From: Dokdonella sp.
GTDB taxonomy: Bacteria > Pseudomonadota > Gammaproteobacteria > Xanthomonadales > Rhodanobacteraceae
Assembly: GCF_019634775.1 (NCBI RefSeq)
Contig: NZ_JAHCAS010000002.1
Coordinates: 496,001 to 560,000, forward strand
DNA length: 64,000 bases
Reading direction: 5' to 3'
Below, piece by piece: positions 40,781 to 60,011 of this stretch. Each line of letters opens with the position of its first letter. The stretch's first letter is position 1. Both the position numbers and the translations under genes were made by a program. Under the pieces are notes generated by a model. The model made no database searches and was not told the DNA's origin. It saw only the letters and a list, made by a program, of their open reading frames with translations.

Positions 40781-41248
40781 CTATTTCGTTTCGCGCTCGG
40801 TGGCGATGAAGCGTTCGAGGGCTTTGCGCGCGTTGACGGTGACCTTGGCACGCAGCGGCGGTGTCCAGCCCAGCAGGAGACCGAGCGGCCCGAGCGCCTG
40901 GCGCGACCAGCGCCAGAAGGCGAAATCGTCGACCTGTTCGACGATGAGACCGTCGGCGAAGCGGAAATGAGAGCGCACGATGTTGTGCACGGGGCGCCCG
41001 GTACTCGAGAACGTGTACCAGGCCTGCCAATCTGCGCGCCCCTCGTCGCCTTCGGCAACGATGCCGGACGCCTGCACGCGCAGATCCGCGGCACGCGAGC
41101 ACAGCATCCGCCACATCGCGCCGACTTCAGCGCCATACAGTTCGAATACCGGATCGCGGAAACTCGCATGGGTGTGGTAGCAGGCCGCCATCGCCGCGCC
41201 GTCGTGGCGGGCGAAGGCGGCGAAATAGCCTTCGATCAACGCACGCAT
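40781..41248 (-). CDS. NTF2/SnoaL-like protein
   Basis: The ATG at 41248 gives 155 aa starting MRALIEGYFAAFARHDGAAM, with ACYHTHASFRDPVFELYGAE and IVRSHFRFADGLIVEQVDDF. This is the NTF2-like cone fold found in SnoaL-type proteins, most of which bind or isomerise small hydrophobic molecules or serve as accessory proteins. It lies 34 bases after the decahaem-propeller gene and is probably the last gene of the conduit operon. No catalytic role can be read from sequence. Confidence 0.8.
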   Translation of the reverse strand: MRALIEGYFAAFARHDGAAMAACYHTHASFRDPVFELYGAEVGAMWRMLCSRAADLRVQASGIVAEGDEGRADWQAWYTFSSTGRPVHNIVRSHFRFADGLIVEQVDDFAFWRWSRQALGPLGLLLGWTPPLRAKVTVNARKALERFIATERETK

Positions 41249-41282: not shown

Positions 41283-44200
41283 TCAGTTCGGCCCGTGGGT
41301 GTCCGATGCCGTACCGGTCGGCGCGGCATGCCTGGACGGGCCGGCGACGGGTACGGGGATGTTGGGGGAGAGCGCCGTGCCGTGGTCGTCGATGGCGTTG
41401 CTGACGTACCAAGGTGTGCCATCCTCCTTGAGGAACAGGCGGCGCATTTCCTCGAGGGTGAACGGGCGCGAGCCGATGCGGCCGAATACGGCGACCTGAT
41501 GGCCGCTCTCGTCGACCGCGCGGTCGCGTTCGAGGCCGCGCGACAGCGACAGGGCAGGCTTGCCGGTCGGATACCAGGCGACGAGCTGCGGCTTCGGGTC
41601 GGGGGCGAAACCGTAGAACTTCGGTTGCGATTCCGGCGACGTGAGCTGGATGACCTTGAGACCGTTGCGGCCGTCTGCGACATAGGCGAACAGCGAGGCG
41701 TTGGTCGTTCCGACCACGACGTCACGCGCATCGTTGAGCTTGCCACCGGCGTTGTACATCTCGTACAGCCTGGGTTGCTCGGGATTGGTCACGTCGATGA
41801 TGGCGAGGCCGTCAGCGCCGTTGGCGATGAAGGCCCAGGTGCGGGCGATGTGCAGCTTTTGCGGGTCACGCAGAGACAGATGGGCGCCGGGGACTTCGGC
41901 GGCTCGCTCGGGCCTGGTCACGTCGACGACGTGCAGGCCGTCGGTGGCGGTGACGAAGAGATAGCGGAATTGCACCTGGCTGGCGCGCGCCCCGGCGATC
42001 GGGATCGTCTTGACGTAGCGCGGTGCGAGCGGGTCATCGAGGTCGAGGACGACGATGCCGCGCTCGGTGGCAACATAGAACGTCGTGCCGGCGATGGTCA
42101 GGTGGCGCGCTCCGTTGAGCACGCCGTCGCCGTTCCAGGTCATGGCGCGCTCGAGGTTGTTGTTGCGCGCCTCGCCATCGACCAGGGTGTCGATGTCGGT
42201 GGCGATCAGGCCTTCCTCGGCATCGGTGATGAAAGCGTATCGGTAGACCGGATGCATCACCTGTTCGGCGTTGGGGCCGCGCATCAGCTCGCCTTCGTTG
42301 CGCTTGGGCGCGACCGGTTGGGTCGTTGCCAGCGCAACACAGGTTGCATTCCTCGACTTGATCGCAGTGTTCTGCCCGAGTGGGGAGAACGGTGCGGTGA
42401 TGAGTTTCTGCGAGAAGCCCTTGTTGCCGATACTGGCGACGTCGTAGATCTGCGTGCCCTTGGTGCCTTCGGCGACGAACAGGTACTCGCCACGCAGTTG
42501 CAGGCACTCGGCAGTGCCGGCCGAATGCGCATGCGCGACTGGCAGGCGCTGCCCACGCTGCTGGTGCTCGGAGAACCAGTCCGGATAGGCGTATTTCTGC
42601 AGGTAGCTGCCGATCACCGCCTGCGGCTCGTCCCACTCGGTGACCTGTACGGCGTTGATCTCGCCGTCGCCACCGACCCAGGCGTGGAAGCCGACGAAAT
42701 CGATGAACTTCGTGCCGAGCAGCAGCAGCTGCGCCATGATGGCATTGTTGTCGTTGTTCTTCGACAGGTGGCAATCCTCGCAGTCCTTGGTCTCGGTCTT
42801 GCGTTCGGTGTGCGGGTAGTGCGGCGCAAATGCCTGCGAGCTGTAGCCCGAAGCGGCGATCGGCGGCTGCTGGACGTAGATCTTCTCGCGGTTGATGTTG
42901 GTCGAGGACAGCACCAGCGCCGACGAGGAGCGCACCGGCGCAATCTTGCCGTCCTTGATCCCGCCATGCTTGCCAAGGAAGAACATCTCGTCGCGCGCGA
43001 CCTGCGGGTTGTAGGTGGCGAAGTTGCGCGTGTAGCCGCCTTCGTACTTGTGGCGCTCGGTTTTCCAGTTGGCCTCGATCGGCAGGTGGCAGCCGCCGCA
43101 GCTCGTCGTCCAGGAGGTGTGGCACGAGTAGCACAGCATCTTGTCTTCGCCGTGGGCGCGTTCGTCGAGCGGCACATCCTTGCCCCAGCGCAGCTCGTCG
43201 GTGCCGCGCGCCATCGTATGGGCGCGCGTCGCCTTCGGATTGTATTCGCCGGACAGAGGATCGACGCTGTCCTTGACCAGGCTCATCGTCCATTCCAGGC
43301 CGGGTGTCACGGCCGAGCGCTGGATCAGCTTGTCGCCGACCCATTCGAAACGCTTCTTGCCGTCCGGGTTGCGGATCAGCAGCAGGTTGGTGCCGAACTT
43401 CGAGGCCGCCGGACCCGAGGTCTTCAGCGTCGGTGGCGCATCGACCGTGCCGTGGCAGTCCTGGCACTGGATTTCCACCGCGCCCATGACCTCGGCCTTG
43501 AGGTAGCCGTTGCCGTGATTGTCCTGGGCGAAATGGCAATCGACGCACTGCATGCCGACGTCGACGTGGATCGACGAGAGGTGCACGCCCTTCTTCCACT
43601 TGTCCGGATCGTCGTCGGCGATCTTCGTGCCGGCGGCGTCGAGCAGATTGCCCTTGCGGTCACGCTTGTAGATCGCGCGGAAATTCCAGCCGTGGCCGTG
43701 GTAGTCGGCGAACTGGGTGTCCTTGAGCTGCGGATTGAGCAGTGAAACATCCTTGAGGAAATCGACATCGGCCCACTTGCCGCGCGGTGAGGCGCCCTCA
43801 GGATTGCGGTCAAGGATCTTGCGCATCTTCTCCGCGTCGGGGTACTGCTGCTTCTCCGGCCACATGAACGGCGCGTCGGACTCGTAGTCCCACATCGTGT
43901 AGCCGAGCATGGTGTTGATGAACATGTTCGGCTGGTGCATGTGGCAGATCATGCACTGGCTGGTCGGGATCTGGCGCGTGAACTCGTGCTTGAGCGGATG
44001 GCCGGGCACGTCTTTCGGGATGGTTGGATCGGCCTGCTGGCTCGTGCCCATGTTGCCGAACTTCGCGTAGATGGCAGAGTGGCGGGGGTCGCGGTCGTTG
44101 GCGTAGACGACGTGGCAGGCGCTGCAACCGGACGAGCGGAAGTCGCCGGGATTGTCGTTGGTGCCGAGCATCCAGATGAATGGATCGTTGAGGCGTGTCT

Positions 44201-45092
44201 TGTGGATGTTGAGCACGGGGATCGACACGCGCAGGCCGGTGCCGGGCCCGCGGAACGACTGCTTGAGGTCGGGCCGGCCCGGTTCCTCGAGGCGCTGGAT
44301 CTGGCCGAACTCGTTCGGCAGACCGATCTCGGCGAAGATGTTGTTGATGTTGCGCCCGCCGCGCTCGAACACGCGGAAGATGTCGCCCGGCGGCACGGTT
44401 TCCCAGGTCGGCATCGGGTTGATCTTCGGCAGAATTCCGCGCTTGTCCATCGCAGCATCGTTGGGGATGCCGTTTTCGACGGCGGCTGGCTCGCCCTCAC
44501 GCGAATAGGATTCGCCAAGGATCGAGTGCTTGAACGGCAGGATGCCGTTGTTGTACGCGGCGGCGCCCCAGAACATCGCCGCATTGGCCATCAGGCTCTT
44601 CTCGTTGGCCTGGATGATCGGCAGGTGGCAGGCACCGCAGGCCTCGCGCGCGATGCGCAGGTCGCCCGGGTTGATGAAGCGCACGAACTCGGGGGCTTCC
44701 TGCATCAGCCAGGCATAGCTGCGCTCGGGATTTGCTGCTGACGGGAAGCGCGACGGATAACGTGGCAGCACATGGGCGCGTTCCAGCGCTGCGCGATACT
44801 CGACGCTGCCGGTCGAACCCTGGGCCTGCACGCTGGCATCGCCTCCATGGCAGTCCGTGCAGCCGAGCACCACGGCCGGATTGGCGTGCATGGTCTTGCG
44901 ATCGGATGCGCTGTGGCAACTGACGCAGCCAGCCGATTTCGCTTCGGCCTGTTCCCAGGTCTGGAAGGCCGGCGCGGCAGGTGCGGTGACGTATTCGCGC
45001 TCGACTTTCGCAGGCTTGCTGCTGTCGGCGAGAACGGGCGTCGCGGTGAGGGCGACGGATGCGATGCAAGCGGCGGCAATGGATCGCAGCAT
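41283..45092 (-). CDS. Exported decahaem cytochrome c fused to a six-repeat LVIVD propeller
   Basis: The 1269-aa protein begins with a signal peptide (MLRSIAAACIASVALTATPV-LA). The N-terminal two-thirds has ten CxxCH haem motifs in order: CVSCH (56-60), CTDCH (78-82), CGACH, CSACH, CMICH, CVDCH, CQDCH, CYSCH, CGGCH and CEDCH. From about residue 840 six repeats of the LVIVD type follow (EYLFVAEGTKGTQIYDVA; YAFITDAEEGLIATDID; FYVATERGIVVLDLDDP; YLFVTATDGLHVVDVTRP; AFIANGADGLAIIDVTNP; FAYVADGRNGLKVIQLTSP), likely a beta-propeller that docks on a partner or substrate. It should act outside the inner membrane, at or beyond the outer-membrane barrel encoded 16 bases upstream. Electron acceptor unknown. 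Confidence 0.9.
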   Translation of the reverse strand: MLRSIAAACIASVALTATPVLADSSKPAKVEREYVTAPAAPAFQTWEQAEAKSAGCVSCHSASDRKTMHANPAVVLGCTDCHGGDASVQAQGSTGSVEYRAALERAHVLPRYPSRFPSAANPERSYAWLMQEAPEFVRFINPGDLRIAREACGACHLPIIQANEKSLMANAAMFWGAAAYNNGILPFKHSILGESYSREGEPAAVENGIPNDAAMDKRGILPKINPMPTWETVPPGDIFRVFERGGRNINNIFAEIGLPNEFGQIQRLEEPGRPDLKQSFRGPGTGLRVSIPVLNIHKTRLNDPFIWMLGTNDNPGDFRSSGCSACHVVYANDRDPRHSAIYAKFGNMGTSQQADPTIPKDVPGHPLKHEFTRQIPTSQCMICHMHQPNMFINTMLGYTMWDYESDAPFMWPEKQQYPDAEKMRKILDRNPEGASPRGKWADVDFLKDVSLLNPQLKDTQFADYHGHGWNFRAIYKRDRKGNLLDAAGTKIADDDPDKWKKGVHLSSIHVDVGMQCVDCHFAQDNHGNGYLKAEVMGAVEIQCQDCHGTVDAPPTLKTSGPAASKFGTNLLLIRNPDGKKRFEWVGDKLIQRSAVTPGLEWTMSLVKDSVDPLSGEYNPKATRAHTMARGTDELRWGKDVPLDERAHGEDKMLCYSCHTSWTTSCGGCHLPIEANWKTERHKYEGGYTRNFATYNPQVARDEMFFLGKHGGIKDGKIAPVRSSSALVLSSTNINREKIYVQQPPIAASGYSSQAFAPHYPHTERKTETKDCEDCHLSKNNDNNAIMAQLLLLGTKFIDFVGFHAWVGGDGEINAVQVTEWDEPQAVIGSYLQKYAYPDWFSEHQQRGQRLPVAHAHSAGTAECLQLRGEYLFVAEGTKGTQIYDVASIGNKGFSQKLITAPFSPLGQNTAIKSRNATCVALATTQPVAPKRNEGELMRGPNAEQVMHPVYRYAFITDAEEGLIATDIDTLVDGEARNNNLERAMTWNGDGVLNGARHLTIAGTTFYVATERGIVVLDLDDPLAPRYVKTIPIAGARASQVQFRYLFVTATDGLHVVDVTRPERAAEVPGAHLSLRDPQKLHIARTWAFIANGADGLAIIDVTNPEQPRLYEMYNAGGKLNDARDVVVGTTNASLFAYVADGRNGLKVIQLTSPESQPKFYGFAPDPKPQLVAWYPTGKPALSLSRGLERDRAVDESGHQVAVFGRIGSRPFTLEEMRRLFLKEDGTPWYVSNAIDDHGTALSPNIPVPVAGPSRHAAPTGTASDTHGPN

Positions 45093-45108: not shown

Positions 45109-46929
45109 TCAGTACGTGAAGATCAGGTTGCCGAGCACCGTGTAGTAACGGGTGTCGTTGCCATAGAGATCCTTGAGGCCCTGGCCGGGCAGCAGGGTCG
45201 CCGCGGACAGGCGCAGGATGATGTTCTGCGTGGCATACGGCCGCCAGATCCACGCCACCGAGACATCGGTGCCGATATCGCGGCTGATGTCGGCTTGGTT
45301 GCGTGCAGTCTCCAGGACTTCCGAACGATCGAACCACAGGTGGTTGACGTTGGCCGACACGCGCGACTGCGGTGTGAGGTCGAAGTCGGCGCCGAGGCCG
45401 ATCAGGCGCAGGCCCGGGTTGTCGAAGTTCGACTGGCCCTGTTCCTTCGAGGAATGCAGGTTGGCGAGCAGGCCGTTGCGTCCGGCCAGGGTCACGCCGC
45501 CGCCGCCGATGAACGGGATGTTCTGGCGAATCCAGTAGCTGGTGTCGGCACCGGCGAAAATCGGGTTCTCGAAGATCGCGTCGTAACCGGTCGAGCGATC
45601 GTCGTAAGGATCCTTGTCGCCGCTGGCCCAGGCCGCCGAGGCGCGCACGCGGATCCAATCGAAGTCCATGGACGCTTCAGCCGCCACGAAGCCGGCGCGT
45701 ATATCGGTCTTTTGCGGCACGAACACTCCACCGTCCTTCTGGTCGCCGATCGCCGCATACGCGGCCACGGTGAGGTTCAGGCGCCCTATGTGCCCGTCGC
45801 CGTTGTAGCCGATGTAGCCGACATCGTAGGTGCGCGGCGCCTCGCGGCCGATCGCGGCCGGGCGCTGGATGAAGCCGTTGGAGTCGTAGAAGCTCTCGTC
45901 CTCGCGGTTGCGGTTCCAGGCAACGATCGCCTGCGAAGTGAAGCCGAGGAACGGGAAGTCCTGGCGGTACAGGCTGGCCAGCAGGATGTCGTCGTCGCGC
46001 GGTGATTTCGTGACATCGTTGAGGCCCGAGTTCAGGTCCTTTTCGAGGCGCCGGAACCAGGCGATGTTGTACTGCCACTTGTTGTTGTCGCGGTTGCCGA
46101 AGAAACGCACGCCGGGCTGGTTGTCCTGGTACAGGAAACCGCGGAAGTCCGACGAGAACGGTTGGATGCCGATGCGTACCTCGTCGACGTCGTAGCGCGA
46201 CGAGGCGGTGCGGTAGTCCTTGGTGAAGAACAGCTCCTGCACGCCGATGAACCCGTCGTCGCGCGTGCGGCCGAAGGTCGGATCGAGCTGCAGGGCGCGC
46301 ACTTCTTCGGTGCGCACGCGGTTGTAGTTCAGGGCCAGCGCGAGCTTGAACTCGTAGTCGGGTGGCTTGAATGCCGTGTCGCCCTTGTAGAGCAGGAAAC
46401 TGGCGATCACGGTCTGCGCGAAGATGGTCTGGTCGGTGTCGCCGAGCACATCGTTGGACCCGGGTTCCGGGCTCGACTGCGGGCCGACCGGAGTCGGGAT
46501 GCCGCGCGGTTCGACCAGGGTGTCGGACACTCCGGTCATGGCGAAGAACCAGTCCTCGCCGAAGATCGGCTTGTCACCCTTCAGTACGTTCTGGTTGTAG
46601 GGGTCGTACCACGGCGACTTGAGACCGAGCGCCTCCATGATGCGCCAGCGATCCGGGACCGGAATGAAGCTGCCAGCCTGGTCGACCGGGGCCGGGTTCA
46701 CCGCGTCGGGATTCTGCTCGACGAACATCGGCAGCGGTTCGGGCGGATGGCCCGGACGCCTGCGCGGAATCTGCGACTGGTATGGATCGTAGGTCGGCGC
46801 CTGCAGCACGCCGAACAGCAGCAGCCAATCGGGCTGGATGCCCGGCAGGTCGGCCTGTGCGTTGCCGACGAACAGGGCCCCGGCGAGACCGAGGCCGAAG
46901 GTGCGAAGGTGCAGGGCGATGCGGCGCAT
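45109..46929 (-). CDS. Outer-membrane beta-barrel of the cytochrome cluster
   Basis: The 606-aa protein has a signal peptide ending LFVGNAQA-DL and no haem motifs. From about residue 170 it shows alternating amphipathic strands (FKLALALNYNRVRTEEVRAL, YNIAWFRRLEKDLNS, VSANVNHLWF, VSVAWIWRPY) and ends LGNLIFTY, with a terminal aromatic residue as in BAM-assembled barrels. It is not recognisably MtrB. Between a periplasmic decahaem protein and an exported one, it plausibly forms the sheath or docking pore of an outer-membrane electron conduit. The role is inferred from context. Confidence 0.8.
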   Translation of the reverse strand: MRRIALHLRTFGLGLAGALFVGNAQADLPGIQPDWLLLFGVLQAPTYDPYQSQIPRRRPGHPPEPLPMFVEQNPDAVNPAPVDQAGSFIPVPDRWRIMEALGLKSPWYDPYNQNVLKGDKPIFGEDWFFAMTGVSDTLVEPRGIPTPVGPQSSPEPGSNDVLGDTDQTIFAQTVIASFLLYKGDTAFKPPDYEFKLALALNYNRVRTEEVRALQLDPTFGRTRDDGFIGVQELFFTKDYRTASSRYDVDEVRIGIQPFSSDFRGFLYQDNQPGVRFFGNRDNNKWQYNIAWFRRLEKDLNSGLNDVTKSPRDDDILLASLYRQDFPFLGFTSQAIVAWNRNREDESFYDSNGFIQRPAAIGREAPRTYDVGYIGYNGDGHIGRLNLTVAAYAAIGDQKDGGVFVPQKTDIRAGFVAAEASMDFDWIRVRASAAWASGDKDPYDDRSTGYDAIFENPIFAGADTSYWIRQNIPFIGGGGVTLAGRNGLLANLHSSKEQGQSNFDNPGLRLIGLGADFDLTPQSRVSANVNHLWFDRSEVLETARNQADISRDIGTDVSVAWIWRPYATQNIILRLSAATLLPGQGLKDLYGNDTRYYTVLGNLIFTY

Positions 46930-46930
46930 G

Positions 46931-48952
46931 TCACTTGCCCTCGCAGACGTACTGTTCGTTGGAATTCAGGAACGGCGATTGCGGACACTGCACGTAGAGC
47001 AGACGCGCGCCCTGCGGGACCAGGGTGTCGGCACGGATTGCCGGCGGTGCGTTGCCGATTGCGCCACCGAGGACGACACCGGCGTTGTGCAGGCCGAGGA
47101 AGGCGACGAGGTCGCTCTGGTCGGTGCCATCGCCGGAGGCACCGACCGCGCCGACCAGGGTGTTGCCGCGGTAGATCGGCACGCTGCCGCCGAACAGGGT
47201 GATGCCGTTCGGCACGCGATCGATGCCCGTGCAGTTGGTCGGTGCCTCGCCGAGCGGGGGCAGGTCGGTGCCGTCGAGGCTGACGGTCAGGCCGATCTGC
47301 TGCAGGTAGAAGGCGAGGAACAGGGCAGCCTGGTTGTAGTCGAGATCGAGTTCCAGGCCGGTGCTGAACACGCTCCAGTCGTTGATCGGCAGGCTCAACG
47401 GGCCCGGCGGGCGGCCCGGCACGCCGTCCGGATAGAACGGCCGCGACAGGTTGCCGATCGCGCGGTTCGAATACGCGATCGCGCCGTCGCCGAGCGCGCC
47501 CGAAGCGGGCAGGAAGGCGCGCAGTGCCGTGACGTAGGCGAAAGGACTGCGTGAGCCGGCCGAGGTGAAGGCGACGCGGCCGTTGGCGAGGTCGAGGGCG
47601 CCGCGCAGGTAGGTTGCCGGCGGCACCGAGGCGAGATCGGCGGCAGCGTAGCCGCCCGAGAAGAATGCGGCCGTGCGCGCCTTCTGCGTGGTCACGTCGA
47701 CTGCATCCACCAGGGCGTCGCGCGAGCGCACGAGGCCGAGCACGACGCCGTTCGTGTCGACCACGACGATGGTTTCGCCGGCCGGTGAGCCGAGTGGCTT
47801 GCGCACCTGCGCACGCGTGCGGTTGGCGACCTTGAGCGCTTCGCTCATCAACGTGCGCACTTCCTCTGCGCTGAGCGCCGCCGGGCCATCGGTGCCCGCG
47901 CGCGGCGGAAAGCGGTTGGTGCCGCTGCCGTCGTCGACGACGAAGGCATCGAGGCCGGGAAAAGTCACCGGATCGGGCCGGATGCCGGATTCGACCTGGC
48001 CGAAGGCGAGGCCGCGCGAGATCGTGCCACTGAAGAAGGCGGGGATCGCGATCACTTGGCCGTCGGCCGGGCCGAGCGTGGCGAATGCCGGTGCGCTGGC
48101 CGGATTGCGCGCAAGCTGGTTGAACTCGACATCGGTGAAACGCAGGCTCAAGCCACCGGCCGTGATGCGATCGGCGCGGCGGTCCACCGGTGCGGCGAAA
48201 CCATACGTCCCGGCCAGGGCGATGTATTCGTCGAGGTTGCGGTCGATGTCGCCGGCGAAGGTGTCGACGCCGTAGGTGTCGTCGGCGGATACGCCGATCG
48301 CACCGACCGGCACTCCATTCTTGTACAGCGGCACCCCGCCTGGATCGGCGGCGATACCGATCGGCGAGCGATGTGGGCCGGCGCTCGGGCCGATGCCGTT
48401 GAAGCGTGCCGAGATGTCCGAACACGGCAGTTGCGAGAACTGCACGCCGAACAGAGGCCCCGAAGGAGCGGTGATGTCGCCGGGATTGAAATGCTCCTGC
48501 GCGACCTGGCCGGCCGTACGCGAGGTGAAGGCATTTCCTTCGGAGGAGAAATACACCGAGGTGATGGCCTTGGCGATCGCGGTCAGTTCGCTCGGAATCT
48601 CGAGGCCTTCGAGGCCGCCGATGACGCCACGCCCGGAATCGACCTTCTGCGTGCGTCGGCTGTTGGTCATGCGATAGGCGCCGAGCACGTTGCCGACGCG
48701 GTCGACGACAGTGATCGTCGCCGGCAGGTTCTGGCCCTGCGCCTCGTTGACGGCCTGCGCGATGATGCGCCGGATGTCGTCTTCGGTGAGGAACGAACTG
48801 GCGTTTGCGCACGAACCCGAGCACCCGGAGTCACCGGAGCCGGTGCCGGGTCCAGGCGATGTCCCGTCGGTACTGGCGGTATTGCTGCCACCGCCGCACG
48901 CGGCCAGCAACGATGTCCCGATCAGCAACGCGCCGAATCTCACGATCCCCAT
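46931..48952 (-). CDS. Two-domain GlcG/HbpS-like lipoprotein
   Basis: The ATG at 48952 follows GAGGACGG and starts a lipoprotein signal (MGIVRFGALLIGTSLLAAC); 673 aa. Residues 20-45 are a Gly/Ser/Thr linker with CSGSC. Two GlcG/HbpS-type regions follow, the first with DIRRIIAQAVNEAQGQNLPA, TITVVDRVGNVLGAYRM and GVPVGAIGVS, the second with EVRTLMSEALKVANRTRAQV, TIVVVDTNGVVLGLVRS and GNTLVGAVGASGD. HbpS-type domains bind haem or related redox cofactors in some members. The gene is one base from the barrel gene, so it is likely an outer-membrane-anchored part of the conduit or a haem-handling factor. Confidence 0.8.
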   Translation of the reverse strand: MGIVRFGALLIGTSLLAACGGGSNTASTDGTSPGPGTGSGDSGCSGSCANASSFLTEDDIRRIIAQAVNEAQGQNLPATITVVDRVGNVLGAYRMTNSRRTQKVDSGRGVIGGLEGLEIPSELTAIAKAITSVYFSSEGNAFTSRTAGQVAQEHFNPGDITAPSGPLFGVQFSQLPCSDISARFNGIGPSAGPHRSPIGIAADPGGVPLYKNGVPVGAIGVSADDTYGVDTFAGDIDRNLDEYIALAGTYGFAAPVDRRADRITAGGLSLRFTDVEFNQLARNPASAPAFATLGPADGQVIAIPAFFSGTISRGLAFGQVESGIRPDPVTFPGLDAFVVDDGSGTNRFPPRAGTDGPAALSAEEVRTLMSEALKVANRTRAQVRKPLGSPAGETIVVVDTNGVVLGLVRSRDALVDAVDVTTQKARTAAFFSGGYAAADLASVPPATYLRGALDLANGRVAFTSAGSRSPFAYVTALRAFLPASGALGDGAIAYSNRAIGNLSRPFYPDGVPGRPPGPLSLPINDWSVFSTGLELDLDYNQAALFLAFYLQQIGLTVSLDGTDLPPLGEAPTNCTGIDRVPNGITLFGGSVPIYRGNTLVGAVGASGDGTDQSDLVAFLGLHNAGVVLGGAIGNAPPAIRADTLVPQGARLLYVQCPQSPFLNSNEQYVCEGK

Positions 48953-49027
48953 CCGTCCTCCCGTAGCGAGCATCGAGCTGGCTGGCGGTACCCCGCGGGC
49001 GATGATAGCTCAGCGGCCCACGGTCGC

Positions 49028-50740
49028 CTATCGCGCCTTGTTTCCGGTTGCCGGCGAACGTGTCGTCGGTGTGTCCAGGGTCAGGCCCGGCAACCGATGG
49101 TAGTCGTGGCAGGCGATGCAGGTGCTCTGCACCTTGCCTGCCGCGTGCGCTCCGCCATGGCACTGGCGGCAGTTGTCGATGCCGGGAATCAGCAGATCAT
49201 TCGCACCCTTCGAGGTTTCCGCTCCGGCATGGCAGTCGACGCAGGCCATCGTCTCGTGCCGTTGGTGGCTGAACTTCGCATCGACGTACCAGAGCCCGGC
49301 CACACGCACCGGTGCGACCTTCCATTCGGGATTGTTCGGACTCGGCGCGGCAATCGTGTGGCAGGTGACGCAGGCCTTGCCGGTGAACAGGGTGCGGGCC
49401 GCCTCGCGCGAACGGTCGCGCGCCCAGGCCAGCGCCTCGACGGTTTCCTGGCGCGACAGCGGCGGCGAACCGGGTCGGCGGCGCTCCTGCACGATGGTCG
49501 GCGCACGCGCGTCGGCATAGCCGCCTTCGAGCGCGCGCCGCGCATAGAACTCGTCGAGCGTGTAGACCACGGCGGGCACGTCGGCATGCGGCACCTGGCG
49601 GTCCGGTGCCAATGTGTCGAAACCGAGCGCGTGGCATTCGCGGCACATCGTCTCGAAGGCGATCGGTTTCATCGCCGCGCCACCCGGTTCGGTGACGTGG
49701 CAGCTCGCACACTCCAGCACCTTGCGCCCGTTCGGCGTGTTCAGGCCATCCGCCTTCAGGTGCACGGCATGGTCGAACTTGAGGCCGGAGTTTTCCTTCA
49801 ACCCAGCCGACCACGGCATCGACTTCGGCATGAAGTTGCCGGCAATGTCCCAGCCGGGCAGGTTGACGTGGAACTCCGGGTGCGCGGTACCGAAATCAGC
49901 AATGTCGGCGATCGAGCTCGCGCCCCGGGTGTTTGCCTTGAGGTCGCGGTGGCAGTCGGCGCACAGGCCTTGGTCGGTGCTGACCATGCCGCGGTTGCCA
50001 TTGTGGTCCTTGTGGCAGGTCGCGCAGCGCGTGTCGCCTAGTTCGGGCAGGTTGAACGCCATCGGGTCGGCATGCGCTTTGGTGCGCACGTGGCAGGTCG
50101 TGCAGGCGCTGTCGCGCACCATCAGGAAGGGATTCTGGTGGCAACTGCGGCAATCGTCGCCGAAATGGCGATGGGCGGCATCGAGTTCGCCGGTGCTCCA
50201 CGCGCCGACGCTCGGCAACGGCGAATGTGCGAGCAGCTTGCCGAGCGGCGGGACGAAATGGCCGGCCATCGGCAGGACGAGGAACAGGCCGAGCACGAGC
50301 AGGAAGCCGAGCCACGACGGCCAGCGCTTGCCGAGCCAGGTCTGCGCGAGCGTGGTCGGCTTGCCGCGGCGGGCGAGCATCTCGGCCTGTTCGTTCTTGT
50401 CGATCGCGGCCACCTCGACCGCGGCATCGTAGTCGCCGCGCGTGTCGAGCAGGGTGATGCGCGTCGAGCCCAGTTCGATCGCCGTGCCGGCACCGACCGT
50501 GGTCGCGTAGGTGATCTGGCCGTCGACGCGGATGCCGGCGACGATCAGCGACTCGACGCGATATTGGCCGCCGCCAAGCGAGGTCACGCGCGCGTGGTTC
50601 AGTGCCGCGCGCAGGTCGGGCAGGAAGATCGCCTGGTCGGCGGCGCGGCCGATCGTCAGCACCTCGCCGTAGTGGATGTCCTCCTCATACGAGACGGAGC
50701 TCTTCCCCTTCTTGAGGACGCGACGGATCAGCCAGCGCAT
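49028..50740 (-). CDS. FHA domain-TM-decahaem cytochrome c
   Basis: The 570-aa protein combines a cytosolic FHA-like domain (about residues 20-100; HYGEVLTIGRAADQAIFLPD, LNHARV), one membrane helix (about 143-160, WLGFLLVLGLFLVLPMAG) and a periplasmic region with ten CxxCH motifs: CRSCH, CTTCH, CATCH, CADCH, CASCH, CRECH, CVTCH, CVDCH, CRQCH and CIACH. There is no cleavable signal; the helix both anchors and exports. FHA domains bind phosphothreonine, so a cytosolic phosphoprotein may tie to or gate this electron carrier. It lies between the di-haem b-like gene and the lipoprotein gene. The combination is rare in my knowledge. Confidence 0.88.
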   Translation of the reverse strand: MRWLIRRVLKKGKSSVSYEEDIHYGEVLTIGRAADQAIFLPDLRAALNHARVTSLGGGQYRVESLIVAGIRVDGQITYATTVGAGTAIELGSTRITLLDTRGDYDAAVEVAAIDKNEQAEMLARRGKPTTLAQTWLGKRWPSWLGFLLVLGLFLVLPMAGHFVPPLGKLLAHSPLPSVGAWSTGELDAAHRHFGDDCRSCHQNPFLMVRDSACTTCHVRTKAHADPMAFNLPELGDTRCATCHKDHNGNRGMVSTDQGLCADCHRDLKANTRGASSIADIADFGTAHPEFHVNLPGWDIAGNFMPKSMPWSAGLKENSGLKFDHAVHLKADGLNTPNGRKVLECASCHVTEPGGAAMKPIAFETMCRECHALGFDTLAPDRQVPHADVPAVVYTLDEFYARRALEGGYADARAPTIVQERRRPGSPPLSRQETVEALAWARDRSREAARTLFTGKACVTCHTIAAPSPNNPEWKVAPVRVAGLWYVDAKFSHQRHETMACVDCHAGAETSKGANDLLIPGIDNCRQCHGGAHAAGKVQSTCIACHDYHRLPGLTLDTPTTRSPATGNKAR

Positions 50741-50798: not shown

Positions 50799-51704
50799 CT
50801 ACCAGTAGAAGAACACTGAAACGATGTGGCCGATCAGGGCGGCGAGCAGGGTCACCGACAGCGGCACGTGGATGTACAGCCAGATCTCCATGATCGCCTG
50901 GTACTGGATGTCGCGCGCGACGCGCGTGGCCAGTGCGCGCTTGCGCGAGAGCATGTCGATGAGCTTGCGCAGTGCCTCGGTCTGGCGGTCGTCGGCACCG
51001 CCGGCGAGGAAATCGACCATGGCGATGATCGTCTGCCCGGCTTTCAGCCCCGCTGGAGGCGCGCCGACCTGGGTGCTGCGTTCGGCGATCGCGCTGCGGA
51101 TGCGCGCGATGGCGAGGTCGGAGCCGTCACGCGCACGCAACTGCGTCCACACGCCGCCGCCGAGGCGCGTGTTCTCGATCGAACGCAGTACCACCGCGTG
51201 GATCTCCGGCGCGATGCCGTCGGCGAGCGCGAGCGCGTTCTGGTCGATCTCGGCGATCTCCTCGAGCATGGCGTCGCGCGTCGCGTTCTCGCGGTTGCGC
51301 GTCATCAGGGCCGGGTAGCGCAGATAAGCGTAGACGCCGAAGAAGCCGCTGAAGATCACCAACAGCATCAGCACGAGTGCCAGCGTGTGCAGGTTCCAGC
51401 CGAACTGGAAGCCGCTGTGAAGCAGGGCGACGAGGATCAGCGCGGTGCCGAGGTAGATGTGTGCGGACAGCCAGCCGCGCGTCGAGCCGAGCGACGTCGA
51501 GTAACTACGCTTGCGCACGCCGAACAGCAGCAGCCAGACGATCAGCAGCGCACCGATCGTGCCGAGCGTGTAGCCGAGCCAGGTGCCGCCGTTCGGCACC
51601 GGATCGGGGTCGTGCCAGACGTAGAACCCGATCGACAGCACGCACAGGGCGAGAGCGATCCACAGGTAGCGGGAGCGGGCGTGGGTCAGGATGGACTCAT
51701 GCAC
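50799..51704 (-). CDS. Membrane di-haem cytochrome b-like protein
   Basis: The start is the GTG at 51704 with AGGAG eight bases ahead; a longer frame upstream is REP translation. The 301-aa protein has five hydrophobic segments (about 13-31, 42-62, 82-101, 105-128, 278-300) and a soluble loop of about 145 residues before the last. His82 and His96 in segment 3, and His279 and His293 in segment 5, are each H-x13-H pairs, the spacing used for bis-His b haems in cytochrome b bundles. It could pass electrons from quinol or from the Fe-S protein across the membrane to the FHA decahaem protein. No close family name is known to me. Confidence 0.75.
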   Translation of the reverse strand: MHESILTHARSRYLWIALALCVLSIGFYVWHDPDPVPNGGTWLGYTLGTIGALLIVWLLLFGVRKRSYSTSLGSTRGWLSAHIYLGTALILVALLHSGFQFGWNLHTLALVLMLLVIFSGFFGVYAYLRYPALMTRNRENATRDAMLEEIAEIDQNALALADGIAPEIHAVVLRSIENTRLGGGVWTQLRARDGSDLAIARIRSAIAERSTQVGAPPAGLKAGQTIIAMVDFLAGGADDRQTEALRKLIDMLSRKRALATRVARDIQYQAIMEIWLYIHVPLSVTLLAALIGHIVSVFFYW

Positions 51705-51778: not shown

Positions 51779-51842
51779 GCAGGAGCCCCTTCAGGGGCGA
51801 TCGACCCATCGCCCCTGAAGGGGCTCCCAAGGGGGCTCCTGC
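51779..51842. repeat. REP pair between the cytochrome b-like and FAD/Fe-S genes
   Basis: GCAGGAGCCCCTTCAGGGGC plus GAT (51779-51801) faces GATCGCCCCTGAAGGGGCTC on the opposite arm (51807-51827), followed by an extra partial copy (GGGGGCTCCTGC). Inside an apparent operon such a pair may tune transcript stability between the first and second gene. Confidence 0.85.
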
Positions 51843-51895: not shown

Positions 51896-54304
51896 TCAGC
51901 GCCTCGACTGTGCATACGCCGGAAACTCCTCGGGGCTGATGCGGATCGCCGCACCGGTCGGGCAGGCGCGCACGCAGGCGGCGCCGCCGGACTGGTCCTT
52001 GCACATGTCGCATTTGACGGCTTTCTTGGCTTGGCCGTCCTTCTTCGCGTCCGGGTCGTAGGGCGCTTCGCCCGGGCCGGGGCCGCGCCCGAACAGCAGC
52101 CACTGCAGCAGGCCGGGCTTCTTGGGCGGCTTGCTGGCCATGTGGATGACGCCGTACGGGCAATTGCGCTCGCAGTTGCCGCAGCCGATGCAGTTGTCTG
52201 CAATGAAGACCTCGCCGTTCGGCGCGCGCCGCAGCGCGTCGGGTGGGCAGTCCTTCATGCAGTGCGGGTGCTCGCAGTGGCGGCACGAGGTCGGTACGTG
52301 CACGTTGGCGAAGGTCGGGCCGGCCTCGCGATCAAGGCGCGAGGTGCCGCCGTGGGTTTCCGCGCAGGCCTTTTCGCAGTTGTCGCAACGCACGCACAGC
52401 GATTCGTCGATCAGCAGGATGTCGGTCGCCTCGCCGGCGCCTTGGGCCATCAGGAACGAAATGATGTCGCCGCCTTCCGGCGTCGACTGCATGGCGAGGT
52501 TGGCGGCGGTGCGCTGACGGTATTCCTTCTGCAGGCGCAGGCGCAACGCGGGGATGCGATCGATCATGCGCTTGAAGGTGTCGCCATCGAGACGGATCGT
52601 CTCCGTCGCGATGGCCGCACGCGCTGTCGCCGAGCGCCTTGTTTCGCCCATCAGGGCCATCTCGCCGACGTAGTTGCCGGCGGCGACGTAGGTCAGCACG
52701 ACATCCTTGCCGCCGAGGTTGCGCGAGATCGTCAGCGAACCTACACGCACGAGGTGCAGGCAGTCACCGGCCTCGCCTTCCAGAAACACGTTGTCGCCGG
52801 CGCGGTAGCGTTGCAGGGTCGCGCCGGCCGCCATCTCGTTCAGTTGCTCGATACTCGCCTCGGGGGCGAAGCGCGACTGGATCGCGCGCACGATGAACAC
52901 GCGGTCGATCTCCCTGCGCACGGCTTCCACCGAAGCGATCAGGCGGTTCATCGAGCGCCGTGGCGTCTCGACGAGGATGCAGTTCTGGCCTGCGATGACG
53001 GTCGCGGTGCGTCGGCGGCCGGAGATCAGGCCCATCTCGCCGAAGAATTCGCCGCGGCGGAGGATCACCGGGCTCGATTGGCCTTCGATGACGATGCGCA
53101 CGTCGCCTTCGACAATCGAATAGAAGCTGTTGGTGTAGTCGTTGCGTGCGAAGATCGTCTCGCCGTCCGCGGGCGTGCGGATGTCCGAGTCGAGCATGAA
53201 TTCGCGCATCTGCAGCGGCGTGATGTGCGAGAGCACCGGCACGTTTTTCTGGATGCGAGCAAGCGCCTCGTCGACACTGCGGAAGCCGCTGATGCCTGCA
53301 AACTTGGCCTTGAGCAGGGGAGTGTCGGCCGGTTCGACGTTGCCGCCGCAGATGTATTCGACGACTTCGTAGCCCTGGTTCATCGCCTGCTTGATGAGCG
53401 GATAGCCGCCCAGCGCGCCGACGATGTAGAGGCCTTTCACGTTCGACTCGTACTGCGCGCTGATCGCCGGCACTGCGGCAGGATCCTTGCTCGGGAACTC
53501 GATGCCACAGGCCTCGACGAAGCCGCGCGGCGCGGTCGCGCCGAGACGGGCGATGACGCGGTCGACGAGCACCTGCGCGCGTCCCTTGTCGGTGGCGAGG
53601 ATCATGCGGCCTGGCTTGCGTCCAGCGCTCAATGCCTCGACCCGCTCGGGCGAGCTGTTGTAGTAGCACTCGATGACGCCGTCCTCGATGGCCTTGAGCA
53701 CGGCCTGCTCGTTGCCCTTCTTCGCGCGCGAGAACTCATCCTTGCGGTTGATCAGGACGACGTTGTTCTGTTTCGCAAGGGCCAGCGCGTTCTCGATAGC
53801 CGCATCGCCGGCACCGACGACGACGATCGTCTCGCCCTCGTAGGCATCCGGGTCGTCGAGCTGGTACTGCACGAACGGCAGATCTTCGCCGGCGACACCA
53901 AGCTTGCGCAGGTTGCCCTGCAGGCCGATGCCGAGGACGACGGCCTGGGCCTCGACCTTCGCGCCATTCGTGCAGGCGATGTCGAAGATGCCATCGGCGC
54001 GGCGCTGGATCGAGGCGACTTCGTGGCGATGGCGCACGTTGATCTTGAGGCGCGCGGCGGACTCGTCCCAGGCGTCGAGGATGGTCTCGCGCAGGCCGGC
54101 AGTGAACGGGATCGGCGAGCGCAGCGGCAGGATGCCTGGCTCGTCCATCACGTACTTGCCCTTCTGATAACGGTAGATCGTGTTCGACAGGTGCGGCTCG
54201 GCCTCGAGCAGCACGTGCGATTCACCGCGCTCGGCGGCGCGAGCCGCCGCGGACAGGCCACCCGGACCCGATCCCACGATCGCGATCTTGAAACGCTCGG
54301 TCAT
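51896..54304 (-). CDS. FAD/NAD(P) oxidoreductase - two cNMP-binding domains - four-cluster ferredoxin fusion
   Basis: The ATG at 54304 (802 aa) has GAGGGG five bases ahead; a GTG at 54310 is the alternative. Residues 1-330 are a TrxR-like two-dinucleotide fold (IVGSGPGG at 10-16, VVVGAGDAAIEN near 165, YIVGALGGYP) with no CxxC disulfide, so it is more like a ferredoxin-NADP reductase than a thioredoxin reductase. Two cNMP domains follow, both with intact phosphate cassettes (GEFFGEMGLISGRRRTATV and YVGEMALMGETRRSATARA). The C terminus has four Cys sets: CVRCDNCEKAC, CRHCEHPHCMKDCP, CIGCGNCERNCP and CDMCKDQSGGAACVRACP, the DmsB/HybA pattern. It probably moves electrons from NAD(P)H into the membrane chain under cyclic-nucleotide control. 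Confidence 0.9.
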   Translation of the reverse strand: MTERFKIAIVGSGPGGLSAAARAAERGESHVLLEAEPHLSNTIYRYQKGKYVMDEPGILPLRSPIPFTAGLRETILDAWDESAARLKINVRHRHEVASIQRRADGIFDIACTNGAKVEAQAVVLGIGLQGNLRKLGVAGEDLPFVQYQLDDPDAYEGETIVVVGAGDAAIENALALAKQNNVVLINRKDEFSRAKKGNEQAVLKAIEDGVIECYYNSSPERVEALSAGRKPGRMILATDKGRAQVLVDRVIARLGATAPRGFVEACGIEFPSKDPAAVPAISAQYESNVKGLYIVGALGGYPLIKQAMNQGYEVVEYICGGNVEPADTPLLKAKFAGISGFRSVDEALARIQKNVPVLSHITPLQMREFMLDSDIRTPADGETIFARNDYTNSFYSIVEGDVRIVIEGQSSPVILRRGEFFGEMGLISGRRRTATVIAGQNCILVETPRRSMNRLIASVEAVRREIDRVFIVRAIQSRFAPEASIEQLNEMAAGATLQRYRAGDNVFLEGEAGDCLHLVRVGSLTISRNLGGKDVVLTYVAAGNYVGEMALMGETRRSATARAAIATETIRLDGDTFKRMIDRIPALRLRLQKEYRQRTAANLAMQSTPEGGDIISFLMAQGAGEATDILLIDESLCVRCDNCEKACAETHGGTSRLDREAGPTFANVHVPTSCRHCEHPHCMKDCPPDALRRAPNGEVFIADNCIGCGNCERNCPYGVIHMASKPPKKPGLLQWLLFGRGPGPGEAPYDPDAKKDGQAKKAVKCDMCKDQSGGAACVRACPTGAAIRISPEEFPAYAQSRR

Positions 54305-54503
54305 CGCCACCCCTCAGCCCCGGCCGATCATAGGCGCGGACACGACTCATGGAAAGCCGGAGATTCCGCCCCAACCTGTCGATATCCAATGACGGGGTGA
54401 CATCCGCAAGGCCCGCGGCGCGGTCTGCGCGGCTTGTCCAGGCCGCCAGCCTGTACTTCGCCACGCCCACCTCGCTGCGAACCTTGGGGATGTCATGACG
54501 CCA

Positions 54504-59940: not shown

Positions 59941-60011
59941 GGGAGCCCCTTCAGGGGCGATGCTTTTGGACAAGGTTGCAAAGAGCATCGCCCCTGAAGG
60001 GGCTCCTGCGG
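59941..60011. repeat. REP pair with perfect 23-bp arms
   Basis: GGAGCCCCTTCAGGGGCGAT plus GCT (59942-59964) is exactly inverted at 59984-60006. It lies between ppsA (downstream side) and the lexA2 promoter. Confidence 0.9.

Follow-up and report, generated by a model that had tools for sequence, protein, structure and literature searches.

The inner-membrane ring proteins of type III secretion (YscD, PrgH, MxiG and CdsD) are built from an FHA domain at a cytosolic N terminus, a single helix through the membrane and a periplasmic domain, and this is also the layout of the protein described here. The phosphothreonine pocket is poorly conserved in YscD and PrgH; in PrgH the mutants of this unconserved pocket are silent and deletion of the domain blocks assembly (PMC3635987). 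The soluble proteins GarA and OdhI are among the FHA structures closest to the domain under study, as found both by Foldseek and by profile, and they differ from it by their canonical pocket residues and by having no haem domain. The FHA face of GarA and OdhI also binds enzymes without phosphothreonine. On the side of the haem proteins, the MtrA-type carriers and MtrCAB conduits share with the present locus the ten c haems and an adjoining barrel (putative here) and second multihaem protein, and the Ext conduit cytochromes of Geobacter type, such as ExtM, are partially similar to the second cytochrome of the locus. The oxidoreductases of the NOX and STEAP types, which span the membrane with a di-haem b domain and use NAD(P)H, are comparable as well, and the features in common are the cytosolic NAD(P)H and FAD and the histidine pairs 14 apart in two membrane helices. 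Each part of the locus is of a known kind and the combination is new; no description of an FHA-multihaem protein or of the six-gene operon was found in the open-access papers searched, a coverage outside which most subscription papers lie.

Here we analyzed a window (the whole stretch of 64,000 nucleotides from a Dokdonella sp. genome) which holds the gene of a protein of 570 amino acids with an ATG start, hereafter the FHA-decahaem protein. The initial annotation had given it an N-terminal FHA domain, one helix and ten CxxCH motifs, and all of these were confirmed by the reading of the ORF, by profiles, by the structural model and by hydropathy. The coordinates of the gene, its parts and its neighbours are collected in Table 1. 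The members of the family are annotated under generic names only (cytochrome c3 family protein, hypothetical protein).

Table 1. Features of the FHA-decahaem locus in the 64,000-nucleotide window
Feature	Position	Strand	Basis
FHA-decahaem protein gene, whole	49028..50740	minus	ORF; aligned with 24 homologues
FHA domain, residues 1-111, cytosolic side (inferred)	50408..50740	minus	model, PDB matches, family profile
Single transmembrane helix, about residues 139-162	50255..50326	minus	hydropathy peak; model helix 138-161
Ten-haem c domain in the periplasm, with its first CxxCH at residue 197	49031..50152	minus	CxxCH count; Pfam; profile match
Soluble reductase with dinucleotide-binding folds for FAD and NAD(P), two domains that bind cNMP and 16 Cys for four [4Fe-4S]	51896..54310	minus	Pfam; conservation
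Membrane protein, putative di-haem b (HX13H twice)	50799..51704	minus	GTG start at 51704 by homology; invariant His
Putative lipoprotein, HbpS/GlcG-like domains	46931..48973	minus	several stretches match Pfam HbpS-like (3.4e-23); lipobox LLAAC seen in the sequence
Putative outer-membrane beta-barrel	45109..46929	minus	exported-type sequence without Pfam match; adjoins two cytochromes, conserved
Second ten-CxxCH cytochrome with LVIVD repeats	41283..45092	minus	signal peptide read from sequence; Pfam

The only hydrophobic stretch of the protein begins at about residue 141-145 (mean KD 2.2, the next best segment reaching 0.9) and is preceded by a segment containing KR, and a hydropathy peak is present at the equivalent place in all 25 family members. 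As the protein is without an N-terminal signal peptide, the FHA domain is most simply placed in the cytosol and the haem domain in the periplasm. The pTM of the model is low (0.43), hence the placement of the domains relative to each other is not interpreted.

Taken alone, the protein matches Pfam FHA with 18.1 bits (E 0.0038), below the curated cut-off of 20.7; the same profile is matched by 23 of the 25 family members with a best E of 4.9e-10. The family profile matches solved FHA domains such as GarA (2e-7) and Rv1747 (5e-7), the overall span being 1e-7 to 1e-5. Residues 1-111 were modelled as a confident beta-sandwich (block mean pLDDT 75-91), whose best structural matches are FHA structures (Foldseek E 2.5e-6, probability 1.00) and which reaches Z up to 10.7 against FHA chains in VIA. 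An FHA-like pattern produced by chance is ruled out, because the homologues match, the family profile finds solved FHA domains and the model finds FHA structures. The FHA-like N terminus of the initial annotation is therefore upheld as an FHA beta-sandwich. The likeness to the secretion ring proteins also appears in Pfam Yop-YscD_cpl, which is touched by 18 of the 25 members at E<0.1. The protein does not belong to the YscD/PrgH family, as a periplasmic decahaem cytochrome takes the place of the ring-building domains and the neighbours are redox genes and not type III secretion genes.

The haem domain has the CxxCH motifs and axial histidine ligands of a multihaem c-type cytochrome, with the haem histidines at H201, H217, H243, H264, H348, H370, H461, H504, H528 and H545. 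Besides these, exactly ten histidines outside the FHA domain are shared by at least 24 of the 25 members (190, 223, 246, 287, 324, 327, 385, 492, 495 and 548). These are likely to be the second ligands, and the equal numbers of CxxCH motifs and other conserved histidines fit ten bis-His haems. Several Pfam cytochrome c3/c7 profiles match above the cut-off (Cytochrome_C7 at 2.5e-13), and the family profile matches chain A of 6r2q (E 2.6e-6), which we take to be the MtrCAB complex, the listed molecule name being different. The locus departs from MtrCAB in that its carrier is helix-anchored with a cytosolic FHA domain, its operon includes a cytosolic reductase, and its putative barrel and second cytochrome are without sequence match to solved proteins.

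The gene lies in a six-gene run in the order reductase, membrane protein, FHA-decahaem protein, HbpS-like lipoprotein, putative barrel and LVIVD ten-haem protein, and this order is identical in most of the 45 flanked loci. The core is made of the first three genes, which are adjacent in nearly all of these loci in Gamma- and Alphaproteobacteria, Sphingobium herbicidovorans being one example; the few apparent gaps in this trio come from a contig end or from a small membrane gene missed by the simple gene caller. The last three genes are inverted, moved or missing in some loci, and the trio stays together even where the barrel and the second cytochrome sit elsewhere or are absent. A relative of the LVIVD ten-haem protein was found somewhere in 30 of the 37 genomes carrying the gene. 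The family occurs in many Lysobacterales and in other Gamma- and Alphaproteobacteria, also on Sphingobium megaplasmids; it was found in 29 of the 121 genomes of the order and in 15 of 398 taken from the phylum. Its spread is patchy, e.g. the one other genome sampled from the genus of the window genome does not have it.

Some observations were also made in and around these loci. A glutamate dehydrogenase-like gene is inserted in the operon of a phylum-level relative (G725, locus L109, 5834-7366), and one genome (G112) has two operon copies with different neighbours (L060 and L061). In the window, a SnoaL-like small protein (MRALIEGYFAAFARHDG...) is encoded on the minus strand at 40781-41246, directly after the LVIVD cytochrome, and a similar gene follows in locus L016. 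The promoter and terminator scans gave nothing beyond chance. A REP/REPIN-like repeat with the core GAGCCCCTTCAGGGGCGAT is present at 51785-51824 and 59945-60003 and also near 657, 23117, 40736 and 63603; its core has 88 places in the genome with at most one mismatch and 0 for the reversed control, often as close inverted pairs.

The reductase matches Pyr_redox_3 (2.7e-28) and cNMP_binding (5.5e-35) in Pfam. Its 16 cysteines are all invariant in 24 sequences, the FAD and NAD(P) glycines are conserved, and so are the phosphate-binding cassettes of both cNMP domains, of which the Glu/Arg pairs are E425 and R434 (24/24 each) and E550 and R559 (22/24 and 23/24). In the membrane protein H81, H95, H105, H278 and H292 are invariant in 28 sequences, which gives two HX13H pairs and one more histidine, and the model is helical with about five membrane-length helices. 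The fold search with this model gave no match at E<0.001 in the PDB and no solved b-type cytochrome, so the reading of the pairs as two stacked b haems is drawn from the histidine pattern. The likeness to NOX and STEAP has its limits, as the reductase is a separate protein with [4Fe-4S] and cNMP domains, the receiver is a multihaem c protein and there is no fold match. The putative barrel ends in an invariant tyrosine. The second cytochrome matches LVIVD (8.9e-12) and Cytochrome_C7 (4.5e-8) in Pfam; it resembles ExtM in part (E 3.6e-19) with a score of only 68.5 where the cut-off of that family is 800, and differs by the LVIVD repeats at its C-terminus. Profile searches of the solved structures, made for the putative barrel, for the second cytochrome and for the membrane protein, gave no match.

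The initial annotation had taken the FHA domain as a phosphothreonine reader by which a Ser/Thr kinase controls electron flow or assembly. In this explanation the kinase phosphorylates a partner, the FHA domain binds it, and electron flow or assembly is gated. The pocket was examined by alignment to Rv1747 and GarA. The IGR motif is present with R32 kept, Ala46 replaces the serine of SxxH and Ala68 replaces the asparagine of NG(T), hence from the canonical set of Arg, Ser and Asn this protein has Arg only; the loss of phosphate-binding residues is then a half one, with the arginine kept and the serine lost. The same is seen across 52 family members, in which the glycine of GR (52/52), its arginine (49/52), the histidine of the HA motif (49/52) and, less often, G69 (37/52) are retained, whereas the serine is found in 4 and the asparagine in none at the aligned position (two members have an asparagine one position earlier). 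The fold, the arginine and the histidine agree with a phosphothreonine reader, and the serine and asparagine positions do not.

The search for kinases and phosphosites was similarly divided. In the window genome 26 Hanks-type Ser/Thr kinases score above the cut-off and there are 12 FHA matches, which makes a reader reasonable locally but does not generalise. Of the 37 genomes with the gene, six that are complete (G443, G564, G609, G698, G702 and G745) gave no Pkinase match, so co-occurrence with a Hanks-type kinase is not a trait of the family; the FHA domains of these six keep GR and the histidine and have Glu, Asn or Asp at the place of the serine. A few homologues (L054, L056, L121 and L125) have a kinase gene at a distance of some 10 kb or less, but such neighbours are sporadic and several of those genomes are kinase-rich. 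The reductase has six strongly conserved threonines, several of them inside cNMP and FeS motifs, and no TxxD phosphosite was found conserved in either the reductase or the membrane protein. The pocket census, together with the kinase-free genomes, downgrades the phosphothreonine reader to an unlikely explanation. Control by a Ser/Thr kinase is not supported for the family, and the signalling input that is conserved in the operon is the binding of cyclic nucleotides on the reductase, of which the cassettes are conserved, unlike the FHA pocket. As a separate observation, 26 Hanks-type kinases are a strikingly large set for a proteobacterial genome of 3.5 Mb.

It may also be considered that the FHA domain is a degenerate remnant whose role is only structural, e.g. 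in stabilising the N-terminus of the anchor. The degenerate pocket would agree with this, and so would one natural member (L030) in which the decahaem protein is without the FHA domain and the operon is intact, which indicates that the domain is dispensable and not always essential. The domain is nevertheless present in 52 of the 53 full-length members examined, with GR and HA kept while the rest diverges, which suggests selection on a surface, and a mere leftover is improbable in our estimate. The arginine of GR is retained more than a purely structural FHA domain needs, hence some anionic or phosphate ligand is possible. A phosphothreonine-reading function is not supported, and the FHA domain is more likely to be a docking platform.

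The surroundings of the operon point to cyclic nucleotides. Cyclases adjoin it in L052, L057, L058 and L060 (CHASE2 cyclases in the last three), and a calcineurin-like phosphoesterase, which might hydrolyse cAMP, adjoins the FHA gene in several loci of Alphaproteobacteria, among them that of S. herbicidovorans. Of the 29 genomes of the order that carry the gene, 26 also have a class III cyclase, as do 43 of the 92 that lack the gene (Fisher p 3e-5, uncorrected for kinship). The search of the window genome found a single class III cyclase (L072, 1489-2382; C1 near 2439000). It ends in an FHA domain whose GR, SRDHA and NGS motifs look canonical, and it could be the nucleotide source for the reductase. 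On these data the genes seem to be regulated by cyclic nucleotides and not by protein phosphorylation.

This cyclase also brings in the explanation that the FHA domain binds a cytosolic partner from outside the operon, such as the L072 cyclase itself, by which cNMP synthesis would be sited at the complex. It would agree with the FHA domain of that cyclase, with the conserved cNMP motifs of the reductase, and with the cyclase beside the operon in L052, which has a similar-looking C-terminal extension (no FHA match at E 0.001). Nevertheless, the pairing of FHA with FHA is no general rule, and the 43 of 92 genomes mentioned above show that many members of the order have a class III cyclase but no such operon. 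We give this explanation a low probability and retain docking within the operon's own complex as the preferred role.

The reading that we favour, with a probability of about 0.5, is that the FHA-decahaem protein is the membrane-anchored periplasmic carrier of an NAD(P)H-driven module, in which the FHA domain docks without phosphothreonine and cyclic nucleotides gate the reductase. By the conserved motifs of the reductase, electrons from NAD(P)H would pass to FAD and then to the four [4Fe-4S] clusters; by its HX13H pairs the membrane protein could carry them across the inner membrane via two b haems; and the decahaem domain would accept them in the periplasm and may hand them to the second ten-haem protein and the putative barrel, and so beyond the periplasm. 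On the cytosolic side of the helix the FHA domain may serve as a docking or assembly platform which holds the reductase to the membrane complex with no recognition of phosphothreonine, and we propose, by analogy to YscD/PrgH, that it docks the reductase or aids assembly. The binding of cyclic nucleotide to the two cNMP domains of the reductase would gate its activity.

Held more tentatively is the wider reading that these genes are an undescribed and widespread module, in which a cNMP-gated NAD(P)H reductase is held by the FHA domain to a transmembrane haem wire and a second messenger switches the export of electrons from the NAD(P)H pool of the cytosol to extracellular acceptors. To our knowledge, the chains by which bacteria export electrons are mostly fed by the quinone pool, and we know of no direct second-messenger switch among them. 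If the reading is true, the module would be a regulated valve for cytosolic reducing power that joins NAD(P)H, two sensor domains for cyclic nucleotides and a haem wire across the membrane, and the FHA domain would be a docking part in redox chemistry and not a phosphothreonine reader.
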